IMG/VR virus record: IMGVR_UViG_3300029922_000001
Coordinates: 62,001-126,000 of that record
Strand: one strand, 5' to 3'
DNA from: a virus
DNA: 64,000 nucleotides
Each line of letters starts with the position of its first letter. Position 1 is the first letter of the stretch. The position numbers and the translations under genes were made by a program. This document shows, piece by piece, positions 4,449-53,943 of this stretch. The notes under the pieces were generated by a model, which made no database searches, was not told the DNA's origin, and saw only the letters and a list, made by a program, of their open reading frames with translations.

Positions 4449-5210
4449 ATGGGGTTAATCCAAACATTAAGATTGGCAAGCGTCTTAGATGGCATAGGCG
4501 ATGACGGCGATTATGAAAAAGCTGACGCCTTAGATCGTCATGTTCTTGCACAAATAGGTTATATTAACCAAAACCCATCAATTAACTGGTTTTTAAGACC
4601 TTGGAGCGATCACGCGCAAGAATTTAAAGATTCAGATTCTAAGCGTCAAAAATTCCATCAATCTACTATCCCAACTTATGGTAGTGGTTATACTCAAGCT
4701 CCTGAAGATTTTTCAGTTCAACCTAAAAAAGTACAAAATGTAAATGTTAGTGAATCTGCAAAACAAATTTTACAAACCATATCTGCACGTCCATGTTTTC
4801 TAAATATCAGCCTTAGAGGTTGTGGCGCTCAAGGAAGTGCTGTATTTGATGTTAAGATTACCAATAAACCACAAGGCGATAGGCAATTCCCTGTCTCCAC
4901 TGATATGTTTGTGGATTTTATGCCTGATACTGAAGGACACGAAAACGGTATATTAGATTGGAATGGTAAGAATTTTGTTTTTCAATCTCCAAACAAATGT
5001 AAACCACAAACCCAAAATACAAAAGAAGTGAGCGACACTTCTACTACTTTATTTAACATGGACGGTGGTAGCGGTGTTAACGGTCCAGCTTATGTAGTTA
5101 ATGACTACAAGAGTATTGGTATGAACGGTGGTAAAACTGGACCATTCGAATGGAATAGTCAACATCGCACTGAAGGCGTCGGAAGTTGGAAAAACGCCAT
5201 GCCAACATAA
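4449..5210 (+). CDS. Hypothetical virion-type protein with N-terminal ADxLD module, 253 aa
   Basis: The function is not recognised. Residues about 3-37 form a predicted helical hairpin (LRLASVLD, then EKADALDRHV) that matches a module recurring in other proteins of this window. The rest has a Ser/Gly/Asn-rich central segment and a beta-rich C-terminal part (NISLRGCGAQGSAVFDV and following). No signal peptide or membrane segment is seen. It is 19 nt downstream of the mutase gene on the same strand, without a strong SD. Confidence 0.72.
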   Translation: MGLIQTLRLASVLDGIGDDGDYEKADALDRHVLAQIGYINQNPSINWFLRPWSDHAQEFKDSDSKRQKFHQSTIPTYGSGYTQAPEDFSVQPKKVQNVNVSESAKQILQTISARPCFLNISLRGCGAQGSAVFDVKITNKPQGDRQFPVSTDMFVDFMPDTEGHENGILDWNGKNFVFQSPNKCKPQTQNTKEVSDTSTTLFNMDGGSGVNGPAYVVNDYKSIGMNGGKTGPFEWNSQHRTEGVGSWKNAMPT

Positions 5211-5255
5211 AGGAATTTGGAAATCGTTTAATAATATAAATATATAGGAGATAAT

Positions 5256-5972
5256 ATGCCCCGATCACCAATTAGACTTGTAAGCCAACAATATGATCTT
5301 GATATTTTCAATGGATCTTTCGAAAACGATGAAGTAGATGGTTTATCCGATTTACAACGCACTTTATTATCTAATGCATCTGTAACTAGAGAAGCATCCA
5401 AAAAGAAAGAACACTTTACTTCTTTATTGGAAATAATCGCTAAATCAGAAGATACCGTAGTAACTGCTGCATCCAAGATTGCTTACAATGATGACACTAA
5501 AATTTATCGTGTTCCAACTGAAATCAATGACGTAGAATTAATTGGCTTAAAAACTCATGGTTTAGTTCAGGGACAAGGTAGATTAGTTAAACTTACTGAA
5601 AGTGGTACTAATTTATTAAGAGATAAGTGGCTTACTTCCGAAAATAATATCAAACAAAAGAGAACCAAACCTAAATTTGATATTTTGAAAGAGCCAAAAT
5701 ATTCATATAGTGCAGCTAACGCCAATTATGTTGATAACTCTGCGTTTAAGGCTGTTGCTAGTTTGAATGATGAACAGAAAGTTGTGTTAGCTGAAAGTAT
5801 CTTAACAGATATTAAAGAAGGATATAATGATGAATTCATTAATGAAAGTCATGCTTATTTACGTCATTTAATCGGTTTAGAAGAAAATTGTCCTAATATT
5901 AACATCGCTACACGAACATTAGTTGCAAATCGTCTTGCATCTTCTGTACAAAGCAATAGACGCAATGGTTAA
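5256..5972 (+). CDS. Hypothetical protein, possible winged-helix segment, 238 aa
   Basis: The function is not recognised. Residues about 70-130 (IYRVPTEINDVELIGLKTHGL, then LVKLTESGTNLL) read like a winged-helix DNA-binding segment, with an LTxxG beta-wing pattern. This is a weak, eye-level resemblance. The C-terminal third is helical. The start is well set by AGGAG at 5246-5250, just before ATG 5256. The last 8 nt (ATGGTTAA) overlap the next gene start, so the two are likely translationally coupled. Confidence 0.72.
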   Translation: MPRSPIRLVSQQYDLDIFNGSFENDEVDGLSDLQRTLLSNASVTREASKKKEHFTSLLEIIAKSEDTVVTAASKIAYNDDTKIYRVPTEINDVELIGLKTHGLVQGQGRLVKLTESGTNLLRDKWLTSENNIKQKRTKPKFDILKEPKYSYSAANANYVDNSAFKAVASLNDEQKVVLAESILTDIKEGYNDEFINESHAYLRHLIGLEENCPNINIATRTLVANRLASSVQSNRRNG

Positions 5973-6687
5973 AGTTAAGTTAAACAGCACAGAGTTAATA
6001 GATATTTGCGGAGAATTAGTTCGCAAAACTGGAGTAAAGAAAGACAAATCTTTATTTAAATTACCTCCTAATTTCACTAGTGACAAAATCACTAGTGAAA
6101 AAAACTTAATAGCTTTGTTTCGTGTTTTATCCGAATATGAAGACGGCAGACATTTGAAGTTAATTAATTTGCCACAACTATATAATAAGTATGGCGGTTT
6201 ACCAATTTTAGAAGATAGTCAATATCGTACTGTACATAATTGGTTACAACAAGCACATTTTGCGTTTAGAGCAATTTTAGTCGAAAAAGCCATGCGACAA
6301 TTTGATAACCTTAATGATGCTGCTAAATGGGTTTATGAGCAAATGTATTTTAATAAACCTAGAAAATCATTTATTGCTAAAGACGGTAATGTTTACAAAC
6401 CACTTCGATATGCAACCTCTGAAGTTATTTTAAAATGGATTCAACAGGAATGTGAACAAAATCAACTAAATAAAGAATATGGTGCAAAAATCACAGTTGT
6501 AGAGTGGGAACTATACGGTTTACACGGAAAACTAAGAACTGCACAAAAAAATCTAACTCAAGAAATAAATTCAGTAGTAAAAATTGCAAAAACTTTAGAT
6601 TATAAAGGTTTTGCTCCCAATGCTGACGAACTAGATGATAAGTTAAATTCTTTTCTTGAGAATTTAGAAATAATGGATGGTGTTTAA
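5965..6687 (+). CDS. Hypothetical protein with C-terminal ADELDD module, 240 aa
   Basis: The function is not recognised. The protein is helix-rich, with no membrane segment. The C-terminus carries a clear copy of the recurring module (IAKTLDYKGFAPNADELDD, encoded at about 6586-6642). ATG 5965 is chosen over an upstream in-frame ATG at 5923 because it makes an ATGGTTAA overlap with the preceding stop, an arrangement seen at five junctions here. The gene contains a perfect 12-bp inverted repeat at 6072-6100. Confidence 0.75.
   Translation: MVKVKLNSTELIDICGELVRKTGVKKDKSLFKLPPNFTSDKITSEKNLIALFRVLSEYEDGRHLKLINLPQLYNKYGGLPILEDSQYRTVHNWLQQAHFAFRAILVEKAMRQFDNLNDAAKWVYEQMYFNKPRKSFIAKDGNVYKPLRYATSEVILKWIQQECEQNQLNKEYGAKITVVEWELYGLHGKLRTAQKNLTQEINSVVKIAKTLDYKGFAPNADELDDKLNSFLENLEIMDGV
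6072..6100. repeat. Intragenic inverted repeat, 12-bp perfect arms
   Basis: TTTCACTAGTGA (6072-6083) and TCACTAGTGAAA (6089-6100) are perfect reverse complements around a CAAAA loop. Each arm contains the palindrome TCACTAGTGA. It encodes FTSDKITSE within the 5965 gene. Confidence 0.7.
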
Positions 6688-6691
6688 AAGC

Positions 6692-9004
6692 ATGAAGATT
6701 AAGATAGCCAAAAATGACAATTATAGTTATAGTTTTGAATATACTAAAGAAGAAAAAAAACGTCTTAGCGATTGGGCTATTTATGTAGAAGCTTTTGCAA
6801 CCACAGAAAGTGATAATTTAAGAACATCTTCTAGTATGATGTTGCAGATTAGAAACGCTGCTTTAATTAAAGACGTTTCCGGTCTTCCATCTGCTTTGGA
6901 AAATCTTTTTAGTCGTATTGAATCCTGGCGCAATCAAATTAGAAAAGTAGCTGATGCTAGACAAGATATTCCCCCTCAAGAAAAAGAAAGATTTGTTAAA
7001 ATCCAATTAGCTCTTAAAATTCAAGAAGTACTAACATCTAATTCAGAACTTAGAGATGCTTTGTTTACTCATATTTATGAATTATCAGATAAAATTGCAC
7101 ATAGCCCTAATTACTTACAAATTCCTCCTGGTTTTAGTGCTGAAGATGCTGTTGCCTATATGATTCGCAATACAATGGACTTAGATAAAACCGCTGCTTT
7201 ATCAGATAATGCTAATCGCGGTAAGATGTCTAGTTCTATTGTTGACTGGTTAGCTGGTTATGCTCCAGAAGCTAGTGGTGGCACTAAAAACTGGGAAAGT
7301 TATATTGCTCCTTTGTTAAGACAAAAGGGTAAAAATGCTGTTTCTGTTTGGAATAAAGGTAACAAGAGCGAAGAAGCATTAGAATATGAAGGTTCTGATG
7401 GTAAGACAACTGAAAATGCAAATATTTATCAAAATAGACAGCAAGATCCACATGCTTTAGTTGATGTTAAACCAGTTAATTTGTCTGCTTGGACAAAAGA
7501 AATGTTTAACAGCGTTAGAAACTTAGTTATGAAGTTGGCAAACAAGAATCCAGAAAAATACGAAGTTCTTGCGGAAAAATTTGGTACTTATACCGAAGCT
7601 ATGAACACAGTTGTAGCACAAGCTAAAAAAATAGATCAAATGCAAATTGGCTATTTCCAAGATAAAAACCCAGAAACTCTAAAGCAAATTCAAAATGCAG
7701 TACAAATTTTCCAAACTTCATTTATGAAGGCTCATGAAATTTTTCCAAATACCTCAAAGGGTTTTGCGGATGAATTAGCAGACATTTTAGAAGATTTCAT
7801 TCCTCAAGCACCAGTTGCTGAAGAAGTTGTTAATCCACAAACTGGTGAAACCGAAGTTGCACCACAGGTTGGAGAGACTGAAGAAAAAACAGATGATTTA
7901 GCTTGGATTGAACAACATGCTCCTGATTTAGCTCGTAAATTATTGAGTATTGGTGGTAAACCAGGTATGTATGTAGAAAATGGTTCTACCAAACCATATT
8001 CTAAGATGCTTGGTCAACAAGGTCCAGAAGGTCAACCTGTAATGAAATATTACATTGGCTTATCTAAACTATTACATTTAGGTATTAATTCTATTGGAGA
8101 TTTAAGTGACTTGTTAGATGAAACACGTTCATTGTCTTCTCAAAATTACGAAGCTATTATCTCTCATTTGATTACACAAGCTGGTTTTTACGAAAGTAGA
8201 TATCGTGCAGTTATGTTGTCTAAACTTTCTTCACCATCTCAGTATAAACCAATTTTCGGTAAATTCTTATTTGATTTGATTGCTCAATTTGGCGATAAGT
8301 ATTATGCTTATGCCGTTAAAGCTGCGGAAGAAAGTGGCGAATTGGCTCAAAATCCTCAAGCAACACAAGCTATTCAAGCTGCCAAGGATACTCTTATTAC
8401 TAATTTGCGTTCAGCCGCAAAAGCAAGACTTGGTGGAAAGAAAGAATTAGATGATTCTCAAGTTGAAAATATGACTCAAGCTAATGACGTATTCAGAGGT
8501 TTATTGTCAAGTATTGATCCTTCAATGAGAGCCGCTGCTTACGAATTCTTTAAGGACGAAATTGCAAAACGTCGTCAAGAGAAACTAGAATGGGGTGGTA
8601 ACTTCGGTGGTACAGCATTAACTCAAGAGGATCTTGAAGAAATCGCAAATGAAGTTTTCCAGAAAGTTTATTTGAATGGTAAAGTTGATATGTCACTTAG
8701 AAGTAAGGGCAAGAATCCTTATGAACCAGCTAAAGGATTAAGCTTCTTACAGCCACACGTTATTAAACAAGAACTTCAAAAGCTTAACACACCTGGTACT
8801 AAAGGTGATAGTTGGATGATGGGCATGGACGATTTGACTAAAGAAACAAGAAAAACTCCAGAAGCCACAGTGCGTGTTAAACTAAAAAGATGCGCTTCTA
8901 AAGAAGAACTTAATGATTTAGCTGCATATTACGATACTATTTCAAATTATGAATTTGCTGACAAGGTAGATAGATTAATTTTCAAATGGTATGCCAATGA
9001 CTAA
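6692..9004 (+). CDS. Large hypothetical late protein with C-terminal ADxVD module, 770 aa
   Basis: The function is not recognised. The protein is largely helical, with long charged amphipathic stretches, an acidic linker near residues 375-405, and no membrane segment or signal peptide. The C-terminus (LAAYYDTISNYEFADKVD) is another copy of the ADxhD module. The late position and size would suit an internal virion or assembly protein; that is inference. ATG 6692 lies 4 nt after the previous stop. ATG 6677 in the same frame, overlapping that stop by 11 nt, is an equal alternative that adds five residues. No SD precedes either. Confidence 0.75.
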   Translation: MKIKIAKNDNYSYSFEYTKEEKKRLSDWAIYVEAFATTESDNLRTSSSMMLQIRNAALIKDVSGLPSALENLFSRIESWRNQIRKVADARQDIPPQEKERFVKIQLALKIQEVLTSNSELRDALFTHIYELSDKIAHSPNYLQIPPGFSAEDAVAYMIRNTMDLDKTAALSDNANRGKMSSSIVDWLAGYAPEASGGTKNWESYIAPLLRQKGKNAVSVWNKGNKSEEALEYEGSDGKTTENANIYQNRQQDPHALVDVKPVNLSAWTKEMFNSVRNLVMKLANKNPEKYEVLAEKFGTYTEAMNTVVAQAKKIDQMQIGYFQDKNPETLKQIQNAVQIFQTSFMKAHEIFPNTSKGFADELADILEDFIPQAPVAEEVVNPQTGETEVAPQVGETEEKTDDLAWIEQHAPDLARKLLSIGGKPGMYVENGSTKPYSKMLGQQGPEGQPVMKYYIGLSKLLHLGINSIGDLSDLLDETRSLSSQNYEAIISHLITQAGFYESRYRAVMLSKLSSPSQYKPIFGKFLFDLIAQFGDKYYAYAVKAAEESGELAQNPQATQAIQAAKDTLITNLRSAAKARLGGKKELDDSQVENMTQANDVFRGLLSSIDPSMRAAAYEFFKDEIAKRRQEKLEWGGNFGGTALTQEDLEEIANEVFQKVYLNGKVDMSLRSKGKNPYEPAKGLSFLQPHVIKQELQKLNTPGTKGDSWMMGMDDLTKETRKTPEATVRVKLKRCASKEELNDLAAYYDTISNYEFADKVDRLIFKWYAND

Positions 9005-9356
9005 ATTTAAAGTGGTTTTGATAGCTAATAACGAAGCAAAAAGAGAGAAGGGGTTAATGTTTACCAAGCCCCTTCATTCTGACGAAGTTGCTTATTTTAC
9101 TTTCACTAAACCTGATTGTTATGGATTTTGGAATAAAAATGTTTCTTACGATTTAACGTTAGCTTTTGTAGATGAAAATCATAAAATCATAGATTTCAAG
9201 GATTTAAAAGCCGAACAAGAAAAAACAGTTTATCCTGATACTCAATTTGTAAAATATGTTATTGAAGCATCAAAAGGCGCATTTGATAAGTATAAAATTA
9301 AAATAGGCGACGTGGTTCATCACAATGATGACGAATTAACAATCCACTCTTCTTAA
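8997..9356 (+). CDS. DUF192 family protein
   Basis: The DUF192 pattern is clear: VVLIANNEAKREKGLMF at the N-terminus, then FWNKNVSYDLTLAFVDENHKI, and a C-terminal EASKGAFDKYKIKIGD segment. The family is small (about 110-160 aa) and common in bacteria, often exported; its biochemical role is not established. Here there is no signal peptide, so the product should stay cytoplasmic or be packaged. ATG 8997 gives the ATGACTAA overlap with the preceding gene; ATG 8991 would add two residues. No SD is seen, so translation is probably coupled to the 770-aa gene. Confidence 0.85.
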   Translation: MTKFKVVLIANNEAKREKGLMFTKPLHSDEVAYFTFTKPDCYGFWNKNVSYDLTLAFVDENHKIIDFKDLKAEQEKTVYPDTQFVKYVIEASKGAFDKYKIKIGDVVHHNDDELTIHSS

Positions 9357-9447
9357 ATTTTTTGAAAAACTATTTTGTTTTAGATTTCAAAAAAAAAGGG
9401 TTTATTATCTTTTTATTGAACGAATAGATACTGGAGATAAACCAACA
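9357..9447 (+). promoter_or_regulatory. Intergenic leader and probable promoter region before the acidic protein gene
   Basis: This 91-nt AT-rich spacer contains TTTTTTGAAAAA, repeated before the protease gene at about 18125-18137, and AAAAAGGG at 9393-9400, related to AAAAAGGATTTTT before two other genes. An SD (GGAG) precedes ATG 9448. A promoter is likely here, but no standard -10 or -35 pair was found. Confidence 0.4.
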
Positions 9448-10548: not shown

Positions 10549-10550
10549 TA

Positions 10551-10599
10551 AGGAGGTATCCCCCTTAGTTAAGAACTAAGGGGGATAATTTAAAACATG
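10551..10599 (+). promoter_or_regulatory. Split ribosome-binding site: AGGAGG, 14-bp hairpin, then ATG
   Basis: A perfect AGGAGG lies at 10551-10556, 40 nt before ATG 10597, too far for direct use. Arms 10557-10570 (TATCCCCCTTAGTT) and 10574-10587 pair perfectly over 14 bp with an AAG loop. Folding removes 31 nt and leaves exactly 9 nt (10588-10596) between SD and ATG, a normal spacing. T4 genes 25 and 38 use hairpins in this way. No U-tract follows, which argues against a simple terminator. Confidence 0.7.
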
Positions 10600-10785: not shown

Positions 10786-10795
10786 AGGAGTTAGA

Positions 10796-11659: not shown

Positions 11660-11667
11660 ACATTACA

Positions 11668-12585
11668 ATGGCTAAGAAAACTGCTCAATATTACAATCCA
11701 TCAACTCCTGAAAATTTGCTATTGCAACCAGGAGTTGATGGTCTTGGCAATGCTACTAATGGTGTATTGAGTCCTAGAGAACTATATGATTCATTAAAAA
11801 AAGTTCTTGAAAATACTGATCCAGAATTAGTTCTTGATGAATTAGAAGCAGTTTTAGAAAAATCGAGTAATCCAGACATTAAAGCTCAAATTCAAAGCGT
11901 TATTGATGCTGAAAAATTTGAAGGACATGGCAAGCCAAAAACACAAAACCTAGACACTGGAGAATTTCACAAAGATGGTCCTGCAAGGGCTAGAGAATTA
12001 ATGGAGGATCTGAAACCAATGATCAAAGCAGAAGAACAACAGCCACAACAGCAACAACAACAGTCACCACAGCCACAGCAACAACAGCAAGTAGTGGCTA
12101 AAGTTAGAAAGAATGATAAGCCAGCTAAGGATGACAGTAGAGGCAATCCTTTCAAGGTTTTGCTTGGTCAAATTGGTAAATTAAAGGATCATGGCGCAAG
12201 TGATAGTGAAGTTAAGAAATTCTTACGTAAAGATGGTATTTTTGGTGATGATATAATTGATAAAGGTCTTAAAATCTATAAAGATTTACAAAAAAAGAAA
12301 TCTAAAACACCAAAGAAAGCTTTTAATCTTAATGAATATCGTATCGCATTAGCTGCATCCGAAAAAGAGCCTGAAACAATTTATGATGTTCCACCTGATT
12401 TCATCAAGAGAAGCACTAATGAATTGATGGCACGTTTAGGTTGGTTAAAGTCATTAGAATCAATGACTAAAGACTCTCCCATAGGTGAAGGTAGAGAAGC
12501 TTTTAGTAAAGAAGGCGCTTCTGAGGAAATTACTAAAATTAAAAAAGCTTTACGTAGTAGAGGATTTGACGAATCTGAAATCTAA
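11668..12585 (+). CDS. Hypothetical late protein with Gln-rich linker, 305 aa
   Basis: The function is not recognised. It starts MAKKTAQYYN, one of several N-termini here with a K-x-A motif. A helical region (about 35-110) is followed by a Gln/Pro-rich linker encoded at 12034-12090, then two more helical segments with many Lys residues. No membrane segment is seen. The gene is 8 nt after its neighbour with no clear SD, so coupled translation is likely. The antisense Cys-rich ORF across the linker is a shadow of the CAA/CAG repeat. Confidence 0.75.
   Translation: MAKKTAQYYNPSTPENLLLQPGVDGLGNATNGVLSPRELYDSLKKVLENTDPELVLDELEAVLEKSSNPDIKAQIQSVIDAEKFEGHGKPKTQNLDTGEFHKDGPARARELMEDLKPMIKAEEQQPQQQQQQSPQPQQQQQVVAKVRKNDKPAKDDSRGNPFKVLLGQIGKLKDHGASDSEVKKFLRKDGIFGDDIIDKGLKIYKDLQKKKSKTPKKAFNLNEYRIALAASEKEPETIYDVPPDFIKRSTNELMARLGWLKSLESMTKDSPIGEGREAFSKEGASEEITKIKKALRSRGFDESEI
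12034..12090 (+). repeat. CAA/CAG-rich tract encoding a Gln/Pro linker
   Basis: Nearly uninterrupted CAA and CAG codons with occasional CCA sit inside the 11668 gene. This is a likely slippage hotspot and a flexible linker between helical parts. Confidence 0.8.
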
Positions 12586-12607
12586 ATAGTATTGAGAGGT
12601 TTAAAGA

Positions 12608-14029: not shown

Positions 14030-14383
14030 ATGAACAGGAAATTAGTATTACAGAAATTATGCATAGCGGCAAATGAATTAGATGGTCATCAATTCAAAAA
14101 AGAAGTTGATGCTATTACTGTTATTATGAGAAGGGTAGCAGGTATGTATGATGATATTAGTCATGAAGAAAACTGGCATCAAGTTGACCAAAGTCATAAA
14201 GAACCTTTTGACGGCGAAGAAGAAAATGAATTAGATATGCAAAATAATCTCCCTGATGAACGTTCACAATGTGAATTACTAATAAAATGGCTGAAGCTTA
14301 AAGGAATAGAAATTACTAATAAACACATAGCTTATGATAAAGAATTTCTAAGTAAACTTTATCAATCAGTATATTCCTTATAA
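14030..14383 (+). CDS. Small hypothetical protein with N-terminal helical module, 117 aa
   Basis: The function is not recognised. The N-terminal 35 residues (KLCIAANELD, then KKEVDAITVI) resemble a weak version of the ADxhD helical module found in other proteins of this window. The middle is acidic, and the C-terminus has a short helical domain. No membrane segment is seen. It starts immediately after the preceding stop, with AAGGGG about 8 nt before the ATG as SD. Confidence 0.72.
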   Translation: MNRKLVLQKLCIAANELDGHQFKKEVDAITVIMRRVAGMYDDISHEENWHQVDQSHKEPFDGEEENELDMQNNLPDERSQCELLIKWLKLKGIEITNKHIAYDKEFLSKLYQSVYSL

Positions 14384-14842: not shown

Positions 14843-14850
14843 AAAACATC

Positions 14851-18176: not shown

Positions 18177-18215
18177 ATGTGGTTTTTCAAAAAATCATTT
18201 CTGAGCATCGTTTAA
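18177..18215 (+). CDS. Possible 12-residue leader peptide upstream of the protease start
   Basis: AAAGGTG precedes ATG 18177 by about 6 nt. This ATG opens a short frame, MWFFKKSFLSIV, that stops at 18213-18215. Its stop overlaps AAGGGAG (18214-18220), which lies before the protease ATG at 18233. It would fit translational coupling, or the SD may instead serve the GTG at 18179. Confidence 0.3.
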   Translation: MWFFKKSFLSIV

Positions 18216-21200
18216 GGGAGCCAAAAGAAAACATGATACGCAAAGGAATATCAGGCGGTGTAATAGGTTTAAACAATTTAATTTGTTTGAACAAAAAAGA
18301 AGCAAACGCAATTAAGGCTAGAATCTTAACGGCATCTAGTTTGCGTGAAAGTGCCCGTATCGGTTTGCAACGTTTGTATGCAGACCCCGAAGATGCACTA
18401 AAGAAATATAAAGGAACCGAATTTGACATCGCCAACGAAATGCTTGAACGTCGTGGCATGAAATTACTATGGGTTAGATGTAGAGCTATTGACGCTAACG
18501 TAGTAAATGCTAATGGTGATTACTTCTCTACTAAAGAGTTATTGAAAGAAACCATACACAATGGCAAAAAAGTTCCAGCCTATAAAACATTTGAAGGCGT
18601 ACCAATTTATACCAATCATGAAAATGATGACATTGAAAAAGCAAAAGGTACTGTAGTTTATGCAGAGTGGGACGAAAAGGAAGAAGCGGTTTATTGTGTA
18701 TTTTACATAGACGAAGAAGCTTATCCCGAAATTGCTCATGCTATTCGTGGTGGAATTATGCACGACGTTAGTATGGGTTGTTTTATTCCAGGTACTAGAG
18801 TATTAACTAATTCAGGATATAAGAATATTGAAAATGTAAATATAAACGATTTACTTTTAGATAAAGATGGTAATTTTACCACTATAGTTAATAGACAAAT
18901 TAAAATTAAAAACGAAGATATTTTTGACATTAAATTTAATGGCGGCTTAACCATTAGTGCAACAAAAGAACATCCTCATTTTGTATTTAAAAAAGATGTA
19001 TGGAAATCTAGAAAAACTAGAAATAAACCAGGCAAAGGAAAAGAACGATGGTCTTATAAAGATATTGGAGAGCCAATTGAAATTACTTCTGAAAACTTAG
19101 AAGTTGGTGACGTGCTAGTAACACCTATTAATCAGGTTGAATTAAATCCTGATAATATAACTCCTGATTTCGCTAGATTATTAGGTTATTTTTTGGCTGA
19201 AGGAAATTTTCTTAAATACAATGATTCTATTAAAGAATTAGAGCTTACTTTTGGTCTTCACGAAAAATATACATTAGTTCAAGAATTTATTACACTTTTT
19301 TCAAAAGAATTTCCAAATTCTACAATTAGAGTATATGATCGTATACCTAACAATAATTGTGTTATTAGAGTATATGACACTGAAATAGCTAATTTATTTT
19401 ACAAATATTGCGGAGAATATTCTGATAGTAAAAAACTAGATTCATCATTAATGTTCCTTCCTAAAAATATTCAATTAGAATTAATCAAAGGGTATTTTAA
19501 TGGTGACGGTTGTATTCATCGTGCTAAAGATCGTGTTATTGGATTAAGCGCATCTTCTTGTTCTTTGGATTTAGTAGAACAAATCTCAATGATATTATTT
19601 AGAAATGGAATTTATCACAAGAAAAATGGAAGAATTAATGGGAAATATATTGAATATACCAAATCTAAAGAAGCATGGAAGCAGAAAGGTGATTTTAGGA
19701 AAACATATTATGAAATTTCTATTCCTCAAGCTTATTGTCCTCAATTGTTAAATGAAACTAGATTTGATTTTCAACCCAACTTACGACAAGATAATTTTCA
19801 TTATGGTAATTGGATAATTCATCCAATTAAAAACATAATCAAAAGACACTATGAAGGATTAGTATATAATTTTGAAACAGAAAGCCATACATATATGGTT
19901 GAGAATTTTGCTACTCATAATTGCGCGGTTCAATCTGGTAATTGTTCAATTTGTGGCAAAGAAGCAGTTAAGGAAGATGATTACTGTAGTCACATGAAGA
20001 ATTACAAGGGTAAGAAATTCCCTGGAACTGGCGAAATTGCTTACGAAAAGAATAAAGATATTAAGTTTATTGAAATCTCTATTGTTGCAGATGGTGCTTT
20101 TGATTCTTGTATGATTAAAGAAATTTACGAACAAGAAGAAATTGAAAATGCTGCTTCACAATTAAGACATAAGACTGCAAGTGTACAAGCAAACATTCTA
20201 TTAGCTGAAAACAATCTTCCAGAAGACATGCTTGAAAGAAGAAAGAGTGAAGAATTCTTACGTGCTATCAATAATTGTAATATTGAAATCTTTAGATTCG
20301 CTGAAAAATTAGGACACACAACTAGAATAGCTCAAGAAGCTGGAACATTAGTTGGTGGACAAATGGGTGGTGGACAAATAGGACAAAACGCTACAGTTAA
20401 TACACTAATGCAATTACTAGGTATTGATCCTACTACTGGATTAAATATCTTAGACATGTTGAACTTAGCTCTTAACTTCTTAGAAGTTGCAGTTATGGAA
20501 TTACTTTCTAAGAGTAGTTCAGTTAAGCTTGAGTACGTTAACAAGGTGACTAAAGCTATGACAGATTTACAAGATGTTATGGAAGACGTTATTAATGACG
20601 GTGTTGATGTTGCACAACAACCACAAGGTGTTCAATTACAAGGTGGTCCAGTTTCACAACAGCAACCAGTACCAGGACAGCAACCACAAGGACAACAACA
20701 ACAAACTCAAGTACCAGGTCAAGGACAACCAGGACAGGTACAACAGCAAGCAAATGTTATGCCAATGGCTTATCAACCAGCAGTTGGTCAGGTAACAGGT
20801 CCTATGTTTGGCGCTTTACCTGGTGTTACAGCTACATCAAGTAATAGAAAATTAGTATGGGCATCACATGATGACGATGATGTTCGTGAGGTTTTTGCCT
20901 CTAGCAATAGAGGTACCAGTGTAAAGAAAGTTAAATCTTTCGATGAAGCTTTAACTCACATTGGAGAAGTAGTTATCAAACTAGCAAGTGCAGTTGGTGT
21001 TGCTGACGATTCATCACTAAAAGCACTCAATTTTAAAATTAAAAAGAATCAAGAACAAAGCAAATCGACTCAACCCGGAGGAAACAATATGGAAAACAAC
21101 ATCTTCAACGAAATGGCGCAAAGACATCGTTTGCGCAACGCATCCAAACTCTCTATTGATGCAGTGTTTACAGACCACTCAAATAGATATAGTGTAGCCA

Positions 21201-28461: not shown

Positions 28462-28839
28462 TTAAACACTTTTACGATCTTTTTTGAATACCGTATTGTC
28501 CTCTAATGTAGGTTTTGTTGTAATTTCTTCTTTTTTCTTTCGGTAGATTCGAACACTTTTTTCTTTGAGCCTACCCACTGGTTCAGTGCTACTTTCATGA
28601 TAAATATTACCATCTTTATCAATATTGTGACCCACAATATTGCCATTTTTATCGTAAACCTTACCACTGTGTAAAGAATACATCTTACTTCTTAATGTAC
28701 CCTTTGAATTAGGTGATCTAAAAATACCTTTCGTTGGCAATAATTGACTTACAACCATATGCAATTCGTCTGCCTCTGCGAATCTTTGCTGTGCCTCTAA
28801 TGCTTCAGAAATTTCCAAAAGCTTTAAACGAATATCCAT
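28462..28839 (-). CDS. Small protein with N-terminal ADEL module, 125 aa
   Basis: The function is not recognised. Residues 3-35 (ISEALEAQQRFAEADEL) are a copy of the helical ADxhD module. The middle is Gly/Asn-rich with KVYDKNGNIVGHNIDKDGNI, like two short beta-hairpin repeats. The C-terminus is strongly basic (KKKEE, KKDRKSV). No membrane segment is seen. A TATAAC element lies 8 nt before the ATG and no SD is visible. It is the upstream member of a two-gene reverse unit. Confidence 0.68.
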   Translation of the reverse strand: MDIRLKLLEISEALEAQQRFAEADELHMVVSQLLPTKGIFRSPNSKGTLRSKMYSLHSGKVYDKNGNIVGHNIDKDGNIYHESSTEPVGRLKEKSVRIYRKKKEEITTKPTLEDNTVFKKDRKSV

Positions 28840-28995: not shown

Positions 28996-29751
28996 ATGAA
29001 TATTAAAGCAATAGCAAAAGAAAGACAAGTCATCTCAGAAGTTTTAATGCAAGTGGCAAACAAATTAGATGATATGCTAGATGTTAACAGGGCAGATGCA
29101 TTAACATTAATGGCAAGTGAATTATTAGAGGAATATGTTCCCAGACTACCCAATAGACAAGCTCAAAGCGTAAACGATCAGCACTCTAATAGAGACGAAT
29201 ATACTACCAATTTTAATTATTCCGAAAGAGAAGACGAAGAAGATGAAGATGCAGAATACGATAGGTTTATTCACGCTGACGATGATGAAGATTTGGACTT
29301 TGATTTTGATGGTCGTGGTAGGTCTGTTGAAGTTAAAGAATTAGATAGTATTGATGCTTTTGCTAGAAGTCTTATGGAAAAGGGTGGTAGAACCTCTGAA
29401 GCTGCAATTGTTAGAGATGGTATTTCTTTTGGATCAGATCCTTATGCTGAATTTATGAAAGCTAGAGCAGGTAAAGATGGTGGCAAACGAACCATAGATA
29501 AAGGTGCTGGTTATCGTGAAATGCAAGAGCGTATTGCAGCGCAAGCCGATAGAGCAGCTAGAAAGAACGGGACAATGGTTGAAGAAAGAGTTCAAACTCC
29601 AGAAGATATCATTTTCTCTAGAATTATTGAAGCTAGAAAAGTGTATGGTACATTAATGAGAAAATCAGAATTAAGTCCAAGTGATGATAAGAAGTATATG
29701 CAAGTTACACAATTCCTCAAACAGTATGATCCACAATATACAGGAATGTAA
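28996..29751 (+). CDS. Acidic late protein with N-terminal ADAL module, 251 aa
   Basis: The function is not recognised. The N-terminus (VANKLDDMLDVNRADAL, about residues 19-35) is a copy of the recurring helical module. A Glu/Asp-rich stretch (about 75-115) follows, then a helical, Lys/Arg-rich C-terminal part (about 150-250). No membrane segment is seen. The start is set by AGGAG at 28984-28988. The stop is 2 nt before the next gene. It resembles the 23972 protein in composition and leader, but not in recognisable sequence. Confidence 0.74.
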   Translation: MNIKAIAKERQVISEVLMQVANKLDDMLDVNRADALTLMASELLEEYVPRLPNRQAQSVNDQHSNRDEYTTNFNYSEREDEEDEDAEYDRFIHADDDEDLDFDFDGRGRSVEVKELDSIDAFARSLMEKGGRTSEAAIVRDGISFGSDPYAEFMKARAGKDGGKRTIDKGAGYREMQERIAAQADRAARKNGTMVEERVQTPEDIIFSRIIEARKVYGTLMRKSELSPSDDKKYMQVTQFLKQYDPQYTGM

Positions 29752-44869: not shown

Positions 44870-45587
44870 TTTTAACTCCTTTTCCTGGTTGAGAAGTATC
44901 ATCCTTAATAACTGGATTTTGAGTAATCTGATTATTAAGTCTGTTTTGAATTTCCAAATAATTAGGAACATAATCAATGCCCTGATTTTGTGGTAGTAGA
45001 TTCATTGCTTCAACTTCTTCTCGTCTTTTGAGCGTATAAACATTGGTGTGTGTAAGGTCATCAGCACTTTGAGAAGCTGAAGATACGAATTTAGGATAAT
45101 CTAATTCAATATCATTAAATCCACCAATAGCAGCGTTATAAATTTCAACAGCATCAGGTGCTTCAGGAGTATCCTTAATATGGTTATATCTTTGTGCTTG
45201 TCTTTTTGTGATATTGGTAGCTAAAACAAAACCACCCTTAGAGTGGACAAGTTTAATAACTTCACCAACAGGTAAACCTTCTTGGATTTTTTCTTGGATT
45301 TTATAAATATTTACATGTTCACCTTCTAAACATGTATATTGTTCACCAGGCAAAACCCAAATGTCTAAATTGTTTTGAGTGGCAATTTGAACTCCAAGCC
45401 ATCCTATATTTGGACCATTAACATCAACCAATCCTACAATGTCTAGTCCCTGAAAAATAGCAGTTAAAAGGATATTTCTAACTGCTGTGGAGATTGCATT
45501 AGAATCATTAAGATTATTTAGGTTAGTACAATATATACCTAAATCTATCCTTAATTGATTTTTGCGCAGGGCTTTACGATACCACAT
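44862..45587 (-). CDS. Degenerate PHP-domain (polymerase/histidinol-phosphatase-like) protein, 241 aa
   Basis: PHP domains are metal-dependent phosphoesterases. Here the order of motifs is kept but metal ligands are lost. LRIDLGIYCTN (residues 12-22) stands where HxH should be, VGLVDVNGPN (51-60) where TDHN should be, and VLPGEQYTCLEGEHV (78-92) where PGxE lies. A later region has LVHSKGGFVLATN, where an H-P is normal. The protein is therefore probably non-catalytic or altered. The N-terminus MWYRKAL matches the 14394 protein. Start 45587 is chosen over 45656. It sits between a zinc-ribbon protein and the connector genes. A virion or regulatory role is inferred. Confidence 0.65.
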   Translation of the reverse strand: MWYRKALRKNQLRIDLGIYCTNLNNLNDSNAISTAVRNILLTAIFQGLDIVGLVDVNGPNIGWLGVQIATQNNLDIWVLPGEQYTCLEGEHVNIYKIQEKIQEGLPVGEVIKLVHSKGGFVLATNITKRQAQRYNHIKDTPEAPDAVEIYNAAIGGFNDIELDYPKFVSSASQSADDLTHTNVYTLKRREEVEAMNLLPQNQGIDYVPNYLEIQNRLNNQITQNPVIKDDTSQPGKGVKNV

Positions 45588-45604: not shown

Positions 45605-45644
45605 AAGATTGGCTAAATCCCTTGAGGATTAAATAGCCAATCTT
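45605..45644 (-). promoter_or_regulatory. Two-part hairpin between the 45629 and 45587 genes
   Basis: AAGATTGGCTA (45605-45615) pairs with TAGCCAATCTT (45634-45644) over 11 bp, and an inner AATCC/GGATT stem continues it. The stop of the upstream gene lies inside. The ATG of the next gene follows 17 nt on. It may be a terminator-like or translation-tuning structure; no U-tract is present. Confidence 0.5.
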
Positions 45645-46228
45645 GCTTCGCCACATGATGGGCAGAATTTTTCACTACCCTTAAATCCATAACGGCATTG
45701 AGCGCAAAACATTGCCATGTCACTATCTGTTCTACTGGCAACTTTGTAAATAGCGGGTTCCTTATAAGTAGAAGCGTCATATGAAGGATTTACAGCTTGT
45801 CTAATTATTGAGCGTTGAACTCTAGCTTGAATTGATCCATTACTTAAACCATTAGCCAAGTCATCAAAATTGTCGAAACGGTCAACTAGGGATTCTAAAT
45901 CATTAGAAAGTTCAACTGATTCTACAACAACTTCTTTAACAGGAGGACCATCGTATTTTCTAAATTCATTTCCTACTTTTTCAATACCTTTACTTGCCAT
46001 AAATTGACGCATTTGTGGCGTATCTAATGTACGTTCTAAACCTTCTTCGTAGCTAAGATCATATTTTAGCTCTCCAGTTTCTGGATCTATAGAAGGCTTG
46101 ATGTTAAGATCATTCGTAGGTTTAGCATGAATGACTTTATTGCCAAATTTATCTGATTGAACAGTATGAGCAATTTTACTTTGTTTAAAGCTATGACGAG
46201 CGGGTATCCCTGTTTTAATATCTTCCAT
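45629..46228 (-). CDS. Hypothetical protein with C-terminal zinc ribbon, 199 aa
   Basis: The function is not recognised. The C-terminus has a C-x2-C-x10-C-x2-C zinc ribbon (CAQCRYGFKGSEKFCPSC). The rest is hydrophilic, with a helical middle and an acidic stretch near 110-130. No membrane segment is seen. The leader is long for this genome: TTGTATAAATA lies at 46263-46270 and an AGGTG SD precedes ATG 46228. It is followed by the PHP-like gene in the same direction. Confidence 0.74.
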   Translation of the reverse strand: MEDIKTGIPARHSFKQSKIAHTVQSDKFGNKVIHAKPTNDLNIKPSIDPETGELKYDLSYEEGLERTLDTPQMRQFMASKGIEKVGNEFRKYDGPPVKEVVVESVELSNDLESLVDRFDNFDDLANGLSNGSIQARVQRSIIRQAVNPSYDASTYKEPAIYKVASRTDSDMAMFCAQCRYGFKGSEKFCPSCGEARLAI

Positions 46229-46262
46229 TTTACACCTATTTTTGTTTTTGAGTGTTGTATTT

Positions 46263-46270
46263 TATTTATA
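46263..46270 (-). promoter_or_regulatory. TTGTATAAATA promoter-like element, leadered
   Basis: An exact T4-type TATAAATA preceded by TTG, 34 nt before ATG 46228, with an SD (AGGTG) in the leader. Confidence 0.55.
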
Positions 46271-46279
46271 CAATTTTAT

Positions 46280-46690
46280 TTAGTTCTTTCTGGATTCTTC
46301 TTTAACGCCCCATTGCATACTCACTGGTTTAACATCAAGTTTTCCTTCAATGTCTCCAATGTAATTCATCATGTCATTTTTAGTAACATCTGGTGCGGCT
46401 TCAAGAACGATGGTGAGCGTATGATGAACTAATGGAGCGTGTTGAGCTTCACTAGCAAATTGCTTAACAGCTAATGGGTTACCAGCAGGAGCAGCACCAG
46501 GAACTTGTGGTTGACCTGGCTGTTGACCAGCAAGCATAGGGTTAGTTGCGCCTGATTCAATAGAAGGATCAAACATAGCACCTTCTAGTTGTTGTGCAAA
46601 TCTAGTTAATTCATCGGCTAATGCTACCTCTTTTCTATTAACTCTCAAATTTTCTGCGATTCTTATTAGTTGATAACCAATGCTGCTCAT
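46280..46690 (-). CDS. Small protein with N-terminal ADEL module, 136 aa
   Basis: The function is not recognised. Residues about 8-35 (IAENLRVNRKEVALADEL) are a copy of the recurring helical module. A Pro/Gly/Gln-rich linker follows (about 45-75), then a globular C-terminal part with a His-rich HAPLVHHT and a ferredoxin-like alternating pattern (LTIVLEAAPDVTKNDMMNYI, then KLDVKPVSMQW). AGGTGA before ATG 46690 is the SD. No membrane segment is seen. Confidence 0.72.
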   Translation of the reverse strand: MSSIGYQLIRIAENLRVNRKEVALADELTRFAQQLEGAMFDPSIESGATNPMLAGQQPGQPQVPGAAPAGNPLAVKQFASEAQHAPLVHHTLTIVLEAAPDVTKNDMMNYIGDIEGKLDVKPVSMQWGVKEESRKN

Positions 46691-46701
46691 AATTCACCTA
46701 T

Positions 46702-47961
46702 TTATTTTTTCTGTGTGGGTAATTGATTTCCTTTTTCCACAACACTTTGTTGATATTTTTGTACAGCTTCATAAACCTCATTTGCAGAAGCAGAGTCAAT
46801 ATATTCAATCATACTCTTGCCTTGCCTCATAGCTAGAAGGGCAGATTTCCAAGGAGTTGATTCAGCAATGTAATTAAAAGCAGTATCATCTAAATCTTTA
46901 TTAGCTTGGTATATTTCATTTAAATCATTCATTAAACTAATAACACTAATGACGGGTTTGTGAATAGACATGATTTGAGGTTCACCAATACTAGACATGG
47001 CTGTTGTCGAAGATATAGTGATAACTGTTTTGGTAAACGTCGTACCGCCAGTTCCATCAGTGCCAGTGCTAGGAGAGCCAACATCTAACATAAAAAATTC
47101 TGGAGCATAAAGAGATAAAAAGTCGATAGCTTCTTTATTAGAAGCTGTTGATTGTGCTGTTATAGATCGCTGTTGTGCTTTAGGTATTACACTGGTGTCA
47201 TATGACATAGTTCGCATTTTTAATCGCTTAAAATTAGAATCACACAAGACAATTCCCTCATGAATTTCTTCCAATGTATTTAAATAATTAAATGCTTCTT
47301 CAATACTATTAACTATTAGGTATAATGGTTTATCAACACCAATATCAATATCGTCTATTGATATTTCTTCAAGATTAGAGTCCACCACACACAATAATTG
47401 TATATAAGGTTTGTCATATAGAATACCAACTCGTAAATCTTCATCAAAAACTTCAAAACTGTAACTGTAACCAGGTATTAATTTTGATGTAAACTGTTCC
47501 CAAGTTAAATGATAAACATCCAACAAAATGCTTCTAAAAACATCAGCAAATGTACGTGAGTGATTTGAAAAATTAACTGATCCAGCTAAAATATTTGCCG
47601 TGGGATGTATTCTGCAACCAATATGCCAACTATTTTTATAGTAATACACAAACAATAAAGCGCCGTCATACTTAATAGACGCTCTGGCTTGATTCCAATC
47701 AAAATTACGTTGTACGGAAAATGCATTAGGTTCTCCATAATAGAAAAATGCATTTAATGACTTACATACAACATTCCAACTTTCATTCTCTAAGATTAAC
47801 CCGCGACTCTCTTGAACCATTGGTATATGCAACGGACTAAAATTCGTATAATTGAATAAGACCAATGGTAATTCACTGTCCACAGTAACTTCTATGTTAA
47901 AATCCTGCTTTATATCTTGCAGTGTCTTACCATCTAATAAATATTTTTGAAGCTCCAGCAT
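46702..47961 (-). CDS. RNA ligase, T4 Rnl1-like, 419 aa
   Basis: This is an ATP-dependent nucleotidyltransferase that seals RNA ends, in T4 to repair cleaved tRNA. The upstream ESRGLILEN and YYGEPNA segments and motif I K97-Y-D-G (residues 97-100) match T4 Rnl1, whose lysine is K99. Motif IV is YSFEVF, and motif V is EGIVL then KRLKM. The C-terminal tail is longer and different from T4 Rnl1 (374 aa). It is placed in the late reverse block, not with tRNA genes. T4 Rnl1 also helps tail-fibre attachment, so either role is possible here. A TATAAT lies 10 nt before the ATG. Confidence 0.88.
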   Translation of the reverse strand: MLELQKYLLDGKTLQDIKQDFNIEVTVDSELPLVLFNYTNFSPLHIPMVQESRGLILENESWNVVCKSLNAFFYYGEPNAFSVQRNFDWNQARASIKYDGALLFVYYYKNSWHIGCRIHPTANILAGSVNFSNHSRTFADVFRSILLDVYHLTWEQFTSKLIPGYSYSFEVFDEDLRVGILYDKPYIQLLCVVDSNLEEISIDDIDIGVDKPLYLIVNSIEEAFNYLNTLEEIHEGIVLCDSNFKRLKMRTMSYDTSVIPKAQQRSITAQSTASNKEAIDFLSLYAPEFFMLDVGSPSTGTDGTGGTTFTKTVITISSTTAMSSIGEPQIMSIHKPVISVISLMNDLNEIYQANKDLDDTAFNYIAESTPWKSALLAMRQGKSMIEYIDSASANEVYEAVQKYQQSVVEKGNQLPTQKK

Positions 47962-47971
47962 TTATATTTGT

Positions 47972-47977
47972 ATTATA
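47972..47977 (-). promoter_or_regulatory. TGTATAAT element 10 nt before the RNA ligase ATG
   Basis: It reads ATG-TATAAT-ACAAATATAA-ATG on the reverse strand, at the stop of the upstream gene. No SD is seen. Confidence 0.45.
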
Positions 47978-49859
47978 CATTTTTTATTTTGCAAATACCA
48001 AATGTTGGTTTAGTAGATACATCAACAGGAATTATGTTAAAGTGATATGTTTCTTGAATATTTTTTTGAATGGAATACAATAAATCCTCAGTACCATAAA
48101 TAACCATCAATTGTTTAGGCTGTAAAGTCGGTATTAGTATTTTAAGTAAATTATCCAATTGTGTACCAGCAGTTTGAAGAAATAAAGGATTGGTTGATAC
48201 TGCCAAAGTATCCAACAAAATTAAATCACTATTTTGAACTTGGTATTCAATGTCATTTTCTATGTATGGCTTGTGAAGACTTATAAGCTTTGCCAACATA
48301 AGATGATCTTGATAAATAAGCTTAATATTTTGCGTTATCTTAAATGGTGCATGTTCATACAAATCCTGAAGATCCTTATTCATCCCATTAATAACGGAAT
48401 AGACCTTTTTGCCCTGTAAAGCAGCATGTAGACAAAATATACCATTACCAGGTGTAGCTTCTAAGACACTCTTAATACCATTGCCTTCCAAAATAGAGTT
48501 AAATGTGTTTATTGCATTTGTGTTGGGACTCAAATCATTAGCAAAAGTCCTGCCTGTAGTATTAATAAACATATTTGGGTCCATATCGACATTGAATCCA
48601 ACTTTAGACTTAGCAATAAACCCATCTAACAATGCCCTGGAATTACCGTTAAAATGTAGAATTTTAGCTGGCAGTTTATTAACATCATCTATGCTTTTTA
48701 TTTTATCCAAGTGAGAATGTAGCTGATAATTGTAACTATTCTTAATGAAAGCTGTGTTTTTTAGTCTAATAGTGGCAATGTTAGTTAATATTTGTTCTCT
48801 AATGGAATTAAACTTGTGCGATTCCCAAATTTCTGCTTTTGGAAACATTCTCAATAAGATATCTTCTATTGCATAGAAAGCCTGTCGTGAACCACCATAA
48901 ACACCTGTGTTGATTACTATTTTAGACTTACATTCATCTTCGGTTAACCCTAAATCTATTAATTCTTCAAGATTAGAATCATAAATCCATGATGCAGATT
49001 CATATAGTCTAATATAAGGTGTCATCCCTAATTCTTTAGTGGTGATAAAGACACTATCATCTAAAACCTTCAATGCTTCTAATAATTGACCAACAACATC
49101 TTCTTTAAACAACATATCACAGTCTAAAAATAAGAAATATTCAGAATCACACACATGAGGAATGGAGTGAGAAATTAGTTTCTTACCAATAGCTGTTTTA
49201 TTCTTTTTGTCTTCGCATTTAATTTCAATTACATTATTGTCTAAACAAAACTTTTCAACTTCAGGCGTACTATCAAAAGAAAGAGCGATAAATTGCAGAT
49301 CGTTTAAGTTTGAAACTTCACTTAATGAATCCAGCATGGATTTGAACAACTTTAGGAAGTTGGGTGTAATGGTTGTCATTATTGAGATTGGCTTAGAAGT
49401 GTTTTTAGGAGTTGTATTAGCCCATAAATGAGAGAAGCATCCTTGGAATTTATTAATTTTCTCTTTACTTAATTTGGGATCAATCCAGATGCTATGAGCA
49501 TTACCTGTGGTTTTTAAAGTGAGTATTTTAGCTCCACGTAAATTACAAGCAATGCTTCTCTTTCCATCCCCTTTAATCAATTGTGGTATGTGAGCAACTA
49601 ATAAATCATCCGCATATACAAAAAATTCTGAAAATCTATCATCTAAACAAGTGGAATTTATGCCAACCTCCATAATTAGAGATTCCCATTCGCCGTTTAA
49701 GTCGAAAACTAATTCACTAGGTGGGTGAGCAGAAAAACTACGTGTGTAATATTGATCTTTGACGTTGATCCACTCATTATCATAACCAGTCACACCTGAA
49801 TAACCTATATTCTGGTATCCAGACACTGCTTTAATGGGTTTCAAGTCATCTAAATACAT
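47973..49859 (-). CDS. NPCBM + glycosyltransferase + methyltransferase-like fusion, 628 aa
   Basis: Three parts are visible. Residues about 5-130 are an NPCBM carbohydrate-binding module (RSFSAHPPSELVFDL, then AHSIWIDP). Residues about 155-400 look like a GT-A glycosyltransferase, with FLFLDCDML and a DxD at D246/D248, the usual metal/UDP-sugar site. Residues about 455-625 resemble a Rossmann SAM-methyltransferase (VLEATPGNGIFCLHAAL, then LILLDTLA), weaker than the others. It probably modifies a glycan on virion or host surface. The start shares TAATG with the upstream gene after a GGAG SD. Confidence 0.82.
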   Translation of the reverse strand: MYLDDLKPIKAVSGYQNIGYSGVTGYDNEWINVKDQYYTRSFSAHPPSELVFDLNGEWESLIMEVGINSTCLDDRFSEFFVYADDLLVAHIPQLIKGDGKRSIACNLRGAKILTLKTTGNAHSIWIDPKLSKEKINKFQGCFSHLWANTTPKNTSKPISIMTTITPNFLKLFKSMLDSLSEVSNLNDLQFIALSFDSTPEVEKFCLDNNVIEIKCEDKKNKTAIGKKLISHSIPHVCDSEYFLFLDCDMLFKEDVVGQLLEALKVLDDSVFITTKELGMTPYIRLYESASWIYDSNLEELIDLGLTEDECKSKIVINTGVYGGSRQAFYAIEDILLRMFPKAEIWESHKFNSIREQILTNIATIRLKNTAFIKNSYNYQLHSHLDKIKSIDDVNKLPAKILHFNGNSRALLDGFIAKSKVGFNVDMDPNMFINTTGRTFANDLSPNTNAINTFNSILEGNGIKSVLEATPGNGIFCLHAALQGKKVYSVINGMNKDLQDLYEHAPFKITQNIKLIYQDHLMLAKLISLHKPYIENDIEYQVQNSDLILLDTLAVSTNPLFLQTAGTQLDNLLKILIPTLQPKQLMVIYGTEDLLYSIQKNIQETYHFNIIPVDVSTKPTFGICKIKNV

Positions 49860-51205: not shown

Positions 51206-51210
51206 ATCTT

Positions 51211-51216
51211 ATTATA
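51211..51216 (-). promoter_or_regulatory. TATAAT element 5 nt before ATG 51205
   Basis: It reads ACA-TATAAT-AAGAT-ATG on the reverse strand, overlapping the stop of the upstream gene. No SD is possible in the gap. Confidence 0.6.
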
Positions 51217-52681: not shown

Positions 52682-53360
52682 TAATAACTCCATCTGTATC
52701 AAAACAAACATTTGTTCCAGAGACTTTCACACTTTGATTTTTGCATAAATACAATAACATTTGATTAACATTAGAATTCACCGAACCACTTTTCATTTCG
52801 GACATCAAATAATCATTAAGCTTCCGATCCCAACCAATTGCAGCAGGAACGTAAAAGTCTTTTGCTCTAACGTAAAAAGACGGTATCGAATAGAATTCAC
52901 TAGTGTTGCTATTATAGTCATTCCATAAATATTGATAATCTTCTGGATTTTTGATAGCACTCAAACTAGAATTTGCCCAAGTGTTAGCAAAACCCAATGG
53001 TATAGAACCCCAAGTTTGATGATAAGGAATGATAAAAGGACAATTTACAATATTTGGAATCACAATAAATTCGGAATCAATCACTGCTAACGAATCGCCT
53101 TCAACCGTATCTTTGATTGAATAAAACCTCTTATGAGTACTTGTTAAAGATAGTAAAAATGGCGTATATGCATCAAACTTGTCAACAGTATGAATATTTA
53201 AATTTGGATAATCTAACTTCAATTGTTGCAAATAGACATATAGATAAATATTGTTTTTATCCACAATTGCCGTCACTTCTTTTATGTCGCTACTTAAAAA
53301 TAAATAGTTCAATATGTTTTTTGTTTTTTCTTTTTGAGTAGAAAATACGTAGACGTGCAT
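52674..53360 (-). CDS. Glycan-block companion protein, 228 aa
   Basis: The function is not recognised. It is a globular alpha/beta protein beginning with a Rossmann-like MHVYVFSTQKEKTKNILNYL and ADIVDKNNIYLYVYLQQ-type alternation, with Trp/Tyr-rich later parts. It is coupled to the two-domain glycosyltransferase and may be a glycosyltransferase relative or partner. ATG 53360 follows a TATAAT by 6 nt; a start at 53375 would add five residues. No SD is seen. Confidence 0.68.
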   Translation of the reverse strand: MHVYVFSTQKEKTKNILNYLFLSSDIKEVTAIVDKNNIYLYVYLQQLKLDYPNLNIHTVDKFDAYTPFLLSLTSTHKRFYSIKDTVEGDSLAVIDSEFIVIPNIVNCPFIIPYHQTWGSIPLGFANTWANSSLSAIKNPEDYQYLWNDYNSNTSEFYSIPSFYVRAKDFYVPAAIGWDRKLNDYLMSEMKSGSVNSNVNQMLLYLCKNQSVKVSGTNVCFDTDGVING

Positions 53361-53366
53361 AATATC

Positions 53367-53372
53367 ATTATA
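53367..53372 (-). promoter_or_regulatory. TGTATAAT element 6 nt before ATG 53360
   Basis: It reads ATG-TATAAT-GATATT-ATG on the reverse strand, at the end of the upstream gene. Confidence 0.55.
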
Positions 53373-53376
53373 CATT

Positions 53377-53943
53377 TTAGCTTTCTGGATTTATCAAAAG
53401 ACTATTTGTATTTGGATCAATTGCAGCTTGAGTTTTGCCTATATTGCCTGTAATCGTATTACTGTCAGTGGATGCCCCACCATAACATGTAATTTCTTTA
53501 ATACCAGTCCAGCCTTTTTCATTTTTATACTGTTCCCATTGTGTTTGATTAACTTGTCGTCCTGGTTCCACAGTATATATTTTTTCGCCGTTCTCATTGC
53601 TACTGGAATGAACAAATAAATTACGTTGACCATCTTTGGATGTAATAATGAAAGGTGGACTATCTGGACCTACTTTGCTTTGGAATTTTTCAATTTCACC
53701 TGGATCTAAGGCGAAACTAGTGATTTGATTACTTTCTAATTTACCACCACTATATGGCTTGATTGGATTCCCGTTTGCATCTGTTAAACTAGAACCTCCC
53801 GTTGGAGCAGTGACAACATTGTAATTCATTTGAGATAATTTGATGTATTGTGCGAATAAATCAGTAATTTGATCTGCCTCCAAATCATAACCCTTTGCAT
53901 CTATTCTGTTAGCAAATTTTAAAAACTGTTCTGCGTATTTCAT
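53377..53943 (-). CDS. Hypothetical protein with N-terminal ADQI module, 188 aa
   Basis: The function is not recognised. It starts MKYAEQFLKFANRIDAKG and has FANRIDAKGYDLEADQI, a good copy of the recurring helical module, over residues 9-25. A Ser/Thr/Gly-rich linker (about 45-75) leads to a globular domain (about 80-170) with a Trp near WEQYKNEKGWTGI. ATG 53943 with GGAG nine nt before it is chosen over a longer frame that runs into the neighbouring gene. Confidence 0.74.
   Translation of the reverse strand: MKYAEQFLKFANRIDAKGYDLEADQITDLFAQYIKLSQMNYNVVTAPTGGSSLTDANGNPIKPYSGGKLESNQITSFALDPGEIEKFQSKVGPDSPPFIITSKDGQRNLFVHSSSNENGEKIYTVEPGRQVNQTQWEQYKNEKGWTGIKEITCYGGASTDSNTITGNIGKTQAAIDPNTNSLLINPES

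Follow-up and report, generated by a model that had tools for sequence, protein, structure and literature searches.

The stretch of viral DNA considered here (the window, 64,000 nucleotides) covers positions 62001-126000 of the 441,498-base phage record IMGVR_UViG_3300029922_000001 of IMG/VR (G000), in which many unrelated late proteins carry at one end the same short helical hairpin. Among the genes around these carriers are a terminase (open reading frame (ORF) 162; phrog_2), a portal protein (14851; window 14851-17475) with a C-terminal DUF559 or restriction-endonuclease-like domain, a prohead protease within the 1869-residue product of 18179, and a major capsid protein (MCP; 26465) that matches the major-head-protein family and is 46% identical to the MCP of Bacillus phage G. 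Judged from its sequence, the 441-kb record is a relative of that phage. Synteny with the window is seen in two further records, G006 (378 kb) and G011 (178 kb), whose MCP is 72% identical; both keep the nuclease-like domain at the C-terminus of the portal and have homologs of the prohead protease. Genes were called as simple longest ORFs, and the module-bearing sequences are metagenomic records throughout. The nine ORFs and peptides from which an original prediction had proposed a recurrent module are all present at their coordinates, and the following copies are retained (E values are from leave-one-out profiles or from an external profile built on other phages, both discussed below):

4449..4562, plus strand: N-terminal hairpin of the 4449 protein (leave-one-out E 0.06; N-terminal also in the orthologs G006 120465 and G011 16709)
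6565..6660, plus strand: C-terminal hairpin of the 5965 protein (external profile E 9e-6; G011 17721 similar)
8897..8998, plus strand: C-terminal hairpin of the 6692 protein (leave-one-out fails; carried by the same-position genes of G006 and G011)
14030..14146, plus strand: N-terminal hairpin of the 14030 protein (external E 0.003, leave-one-out 1e-4; paralog G000 305425)
28735..28839, minus strand: N-terminal hairpin of the 28462 protein (leave-one-out E 0.09)
29032..29130, plus strand: N-terminal hairpin of the 28996 protein (leave-one-out E 0.13; same in G006 151406 and G011 50226)
46580..46690, minus strand: N-terminal hairpin of the 46280 protein, ending in RFAQ (leave-one-out E 0.1; orthologs G006 165974 and G011 65880)
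53839..53943, minus strand: N-terminal hairpin of the protein starting at ATG 53943, which is preceded by a GGAG ribosome-binding site (leave-one-out E 0.011)

At about 32 residues, the module is a helical hairpin with the consensus hxxhAxxLD-x7-ADxh[DT]xhhx[KR]xA; the original consensus needs correcting in its spacing, the 5-10 residues allowed between LD and AD being nearly always exactly 7. A 38-residue construct is predicted to form two helices (residues 2-15 and 19-37) with a mean pLDDT of 90.7, and an AF2 model of the whole 46280 protein from its single sequence, of low confidence overall (pLDDT 47.7), still has the hairpin at its N-terminus. Terminal placement is found for 70 of 86 copies against 34 expected (carriers of at least 100 amino acids). 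Outside the module there are just six similar pairs among 97 carriers, and when 75 carriers were aligned unguided the module emerged as the sole near-invariant stretch. Known families do not account for it: 29 module sequences searched against Pfam-A at E values up to 10 gave no TPR match and at best DUF1902 (0.0017, two members), PHROGs offered no family common to two module members, and scanning the cited proteins with Pfam and PHROGs models returned nothing that explains the module. Likewise, a PDB profile search and Foldseek produced only weak or generic two-helix hairpins, and searches of the open-access literature found no earlier description of such a tag.

Amphipathic hairpins are common enough that copies chosen by eye might resemble one another by chance, and indeed, of the nine copies cited, a leave-one-out test supports five only modestly and two not at all. 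For the set as a whole, this explanation is refuted. A profile hidden Markov model (HMM) trained on five N-terminal copies recovered held-out N-terminal copies elsewhere in G000 (243709 at E 0.0012, 327007 at 0.049 and, more weakly, 180328 at 0.18), with nothing comparable among shuffled and reversed decoy proteins. The external HMM, built from 87 copies in other phages and containing no G000 sequence, found six G000 proteins at E values from 9e-6 to 0.023, whereas no match in 11 decoy proteomes was better than 0.14. A profile scan of the phage and related phages had been set beforehand as the check on the prediction, and in it copies and decoys separate. Individual copies fare differently. 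In leave-one-out profiles 5965 and 14030 are strong (E about 1e-4), so that the latter, ranked among the weaker copies at the outset, is one of the best; 53943, 4449, 28462, 46280 and 28996 are modest (0.01-0.13), the match in each falling at the end where it was expected; no support was obtained for 6692 or 23972. Of these two, 6692 is supported by orthology, the genes at its position in G006 and G011 having C-terminal hairpins.

For the weaker copies, synteny is the stronger evidence. Five of the cited genes, 4449, 5965, 6692, 28996 and 46280, have positional counterparts in both G006 and G011 whose hairpin lies at the matching terminus, a call made partly by eye for 6692 and 5965. The G006 ortholog of 5965 (121545) is 37% identical, hairpin included, and in the 46280 orthologs the A, L, EL and RxAQ of the hairpin are invariant while the linker behind it cannot be aligned. 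Chance likeness is accordingly highly improbable for the set, and stands only for 23972, which was rejected as a carrier because its orthologs share a different conserved N-terminus. For 14030, 28462 and 53943 no counterpart was found in G006 or G011. Beyond the window, G000 has additional copies in 180328, 243709, 305425, 323539 and 327007, and possibly also in 322343, 327713 and the C-terminus of 193087.

The claim of a short module at the ends of many unrelated late proteins thus proves larger than first made, with about 100 copies over at least 13 viral contigs and up to 19 per contig. Per-genome counts come from a profile (A2) trained partly on sequences from the searched genomes, and the overlapping contigs G004 and G005 were counted once in non-redundant figures. 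The DNA pattern [IM]Axx[LF]D-x7-ADx[LF]D matched 53 stretches of viral contigs in IMG/VR, of which many are clear modules flanked by further consensus, and several contigs had more than one match; a slightly stricter pattern gave 31 matches in 85,000 cellular genomes, none module-like. In the collections searched, the module is restricted to viral contigs. Profile A2 found no module in phage G, LR745208 or Tunturi_5, short tblastn searches with module consensus sequences had no match in 50,697 phage records, three module proteins had no homologs in isolated phages, and one scan of viral contigs with the 5965 protein found no homolog. This distribution bears on a second alternative, in which the hairpin is a mere oligomerisation element pairing into four-helix bundles and carries no common address. 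Its amphipathic character, the generic two-helix structures returned by Foldseek, and the presence of two or three copies in some proteins would all suit such an element. A generic dimeriser would not, however, be expected to put one and the same sequence at an end of some 100 unrelated proteins across a single set of phages, nor to be missing from phage G and cellular genomes, and we regard this explanation as quite unlikely. The multi-copy proteins themselves (G016 46848-48093 and G012 15978-16877) are possible hubs for homotypic docking.

What the hairpin is attached to is more telling of its role. Recognisable partner domains, each occurring once, are a CCA/poly(A) nucleotidyltransferase, an archaeosine-synthase-like domain, a GH108 lysin, a peptidoglycan-binding lysin, ART-PolyVal, ArdC-N and sigma-70 region 3. 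Many carrier genes of G000 are interspersed with those for terminase, portal, protease and MCP; module-gene proximity to the terminase, looked at informally, was not clearly above chance and is not used as evidence. One could imagine that the hairpin docks enzymes and structural proteins alike onto a phage-made hub in the cell that is not part of the virion, for example a membrane compartment or one for replication or RNA processing. Carriers such as the nucleotidyltransferase and the archaeosine-synthase-like and sigma-70-like proteins would be at home there, and several carriers are distant from structural genes. The lysin, ART-PolyVal and ArdC-N partners and the location among head genes nevertheless suit the virion better. 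Further, a search of 17 records with the phiKZ shell protein gp54 (ChmA, chimallin) at E 0.1 found no homolog, while recovering the phiKZ control; a very diverged shell would escape it. A phiKZ-type nucleus, one of the partners first suggested for the hairpin, is disfavoured on this ground, and a non-virion hub in general appears rather unlikely. Of the partners suggested, the prohead's internal core or scaffold is the best match.

The boundary between hairpin and cargo provides a further clue. Of 81 N-terminal copies, 37 have a [KR]xA at 8-10 residues past the AD; of nine C-terminal copies, none does (Fisher p 0.009). The related motif [KR][TVI]A[QS] is enriched seven- to ten-fold in the head genes of three phages: the head clusters of G000, G006 and G011 contain 14, 11 and 10 against 1.4, 1.6 and 1.3 expected, the tail clusters 1, 4 and 6 against 1.4, 1.7 and 1.8, and the remainder of each record 21, 30 and 5 against 12.7, 14.2 and 5.1. 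The motif was picked by eye in G000 before counting, so the G006 and G011 counts are the more independent. Some sites keep their position in the orthologs of all three phages, as with KTAY in 23972 and RTAY in 12608, and sites of this type may be where the prohead protease cuts. The protease domain and the candidate sites in the window are:

18485..18778, plus strand: head maturation (prohead) protease domain of 18179 (phrog_18299, E 1.7e-18)
2148..2159, plus strand: N-terminal RIAQ of 2139, a candidate processing site (motif enriched in head genes)
11677..11688, plus strand: N-terminal KTAQ of 11668, a candidate processing site (the G006 ortholog has RTAQ in its place)
6535..6546, plus strand: candidate site RTAQ just ahead of the C-terminal hairpin of 5965 (weak, because G011 is without it)

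These observations converge on a reading to which we give a probability of about 0.55, namely that the hairpin serves as a transferable sorting signal at protein ends and loads its varied cargo into the prohead, much as the capsid targeting sequence (CTS) of T4 does. The amphipathic hairpin would bring otherwise unrelated late proteins to the assembling head, the prohead core, by docking onto a partner in the core, scaffold or shell; many N-terminal tags would later be trimmed by the prohead protease at the [KR]xA just past helix 2; and the tagged proteins would travel in the virion, some of them to be delivered into the host. Loading into the head we infer from the effector-type partner domains, the location among head genes, the presence of a prohead protease and the enrichment of the motif, and the hairpin is distributed as a tag of this sort should be. 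There is precedent for such a mechanism. In T4 short terminal propeptides bring internal proteins into the head and are later removed by gp21 (PMC9026906), and T4 and P1 together set the precedent for terminal head-targeting sequences, T4 Alt being processed at both ends (PMC9026906, PMC9024508). Like the hairpin, the T4 CTS is terminal, usually N-terminal, and found on several different proteins (IPI, IPII, IPIII and Alt, cut by gp21; PMC9026906). It has a protease site at the tag junction, where many N-terminal hairpins have [KR]xA, a candidate cleavage site; the hairpin phage, too, encodes a prohead protease. The two differ in that the CTS has about 10 residues and the hairpin about 32, with a predicted fold and another sequence; in that T4 cuts after L/I-x-E, the recurrent motif at the hairpin junction being [KR]xA; and in that the hairpin occurs at either terminus and on many more proteins, its packaging and cleavage being proposals. 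Similarly, the capsid localisation signal of P1 DarB is a terminal region that sends an antirestriction protein, or a fused reporter, to the capsid (PMC9024508), yet it is known on a single protein and is no repeated module. Large phages with the phiKZ gp175 and SPN3US gp245 systems also process many internal or ejected head proteins with a prohead protease (PMC9026906, PMC10052503), in their case after glutamate. Finally, the polyvalent proteins of phages and conjugative elements share with the tagged proteins the ART and ArdC-N partners and the late-gene context, and share inorganic pyrophosphatase (InPase) with the WY-tagged set described below (PMC5512222); they are multidomain and defined by their effector domains, whereas the hairpin set is defined by a common terminal tag. 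For such effectors (ART and relatives) packaging in the virion has been either described or predicted, and T4 Alt is packaged and injected (PMC5512222).

Several points weigh against a head-sorting role. About half of the G000 copies fall outside the structural region, and tRNA-related enzymes (the CCA nucleotidyltransferase and the archaeosine-synthase-like protein), which are not usual virion cargo, are tagged too. The [KR][TVI]A[QS] motif is unenriched in G004 (8 against 8.6) and only slightly enriched in G013 (19 against 14.7), and the site ahead of the 5965 hairpin is KTAL in G006 and absent in G011. The [KR]xA may merely be the end of helix 2, near which C-terminal copies stop. No docking partner of the hairpin was found; of the original idea of a docking tag for one common partner, the terminal tag on unrelated proteins is well supported, and a single partner may reasonably be supposed.

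A second N-terminal signature, M(x0-3)WY[KR]xA[QSN], also stands on unrelated proteins, with 24 strict cases in six contigs (G000, G006, G011, G003, G001 and G017). Those in the window and in G000 are:

14394, window: WY-signature protein
44862, window, minus strand, ATG at 45587: WY-signature protein
1627, 228687, 270159, 308393, 330772, 333858 and 336291, G000: WY-signature proteins

Partners of this signature include InPase, zeta-toxin-like, PcfJ, NUDIX and nucleotidyltransferase domains, and packaging has been predicted for InPase among other domains (PMC5512222). The signature is unlikely to be a promoter artefact, since its codons vary; MWYT starts in G000 were set aside as members, most of them being promoter sequence containing TGTGGTATACT. 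A nucleotidyltransferase has a C-terminal hairpin in G004 and a WY start in G006 and G017, which suggests that the two tags may do the same job. It is possible, if on balance doubtful, that phage-G-related huge phages load dozens of different effectors into one virion by a general sorting code, in which the hairpin and a minimal tag at the N-terminus, M(x)WY[KR]xA[QS], are interchangeable terminal labels that each abut a [KR]xA[QS] cut by the prohead protease.

An extended -10-like element, TGTGGTATACT (or TGTGGTATAAT), has an ATG 6-7 bases downstream, as in leaderless transcripts, and occurs at 10 sites in G000 against 0.6 expected. Sites with an ATG in G000 are:

266876, 296354, 319524, 338820, 351459 and 368503, plus strand: -10-like element
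296299, minus strand: -10-like element

Another huge phage, L027 (LR745208), has repeated N-termini of its own, MTTLRSKLIRLAHxxPxLRPxLLPLLKEA on two proteins (19893 and 28171) and LDN[IL]AxLF...KVAMDFA on two others (31416 and 33540), which are perhaps analogous tags. Among the structural genes, residues 195-590 of 18179 (window 18179-23788) match endonuclease and intein-bearing families, and an intein is thus probable inside the protease gene. Five more G000 ORFs beyond the window resemble the relatives' MCP besides 26465 (9861, 174487, 289080, 290459 and 335824) and are possible minor capsid proteins or pentamers. Zinc-ribbon-like CxxC...CxxC C-termini recur in structural-cluster proteins (window 45629-46228, the 18179 C-terminus, G006 165343 and G011 65190). 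A tail-sheath model had no matches in these records, nor did a T4-portal model, which had none in controls either; two terminase models had no match in contigs G004, G005, G015, G016 and G020, nor in G006, though it is syntenic with G000.

Whatever its function, a module that occurs up to 19 times per contig, and for which the searched family libraries have no model, is of use in annotating proteins that are otherwise unknown. If the hairpin is indeed a head-sorting tag, the implications are considerable: with a short profile one could pick out, among the hundreds of unknown proteins that huge phages encode, those predicted to ride in the virion, the tag would offer a modular means of loading foreign proteins into very large capsids, and the cargo that these phages carry into their hosts would become testable from sequence.

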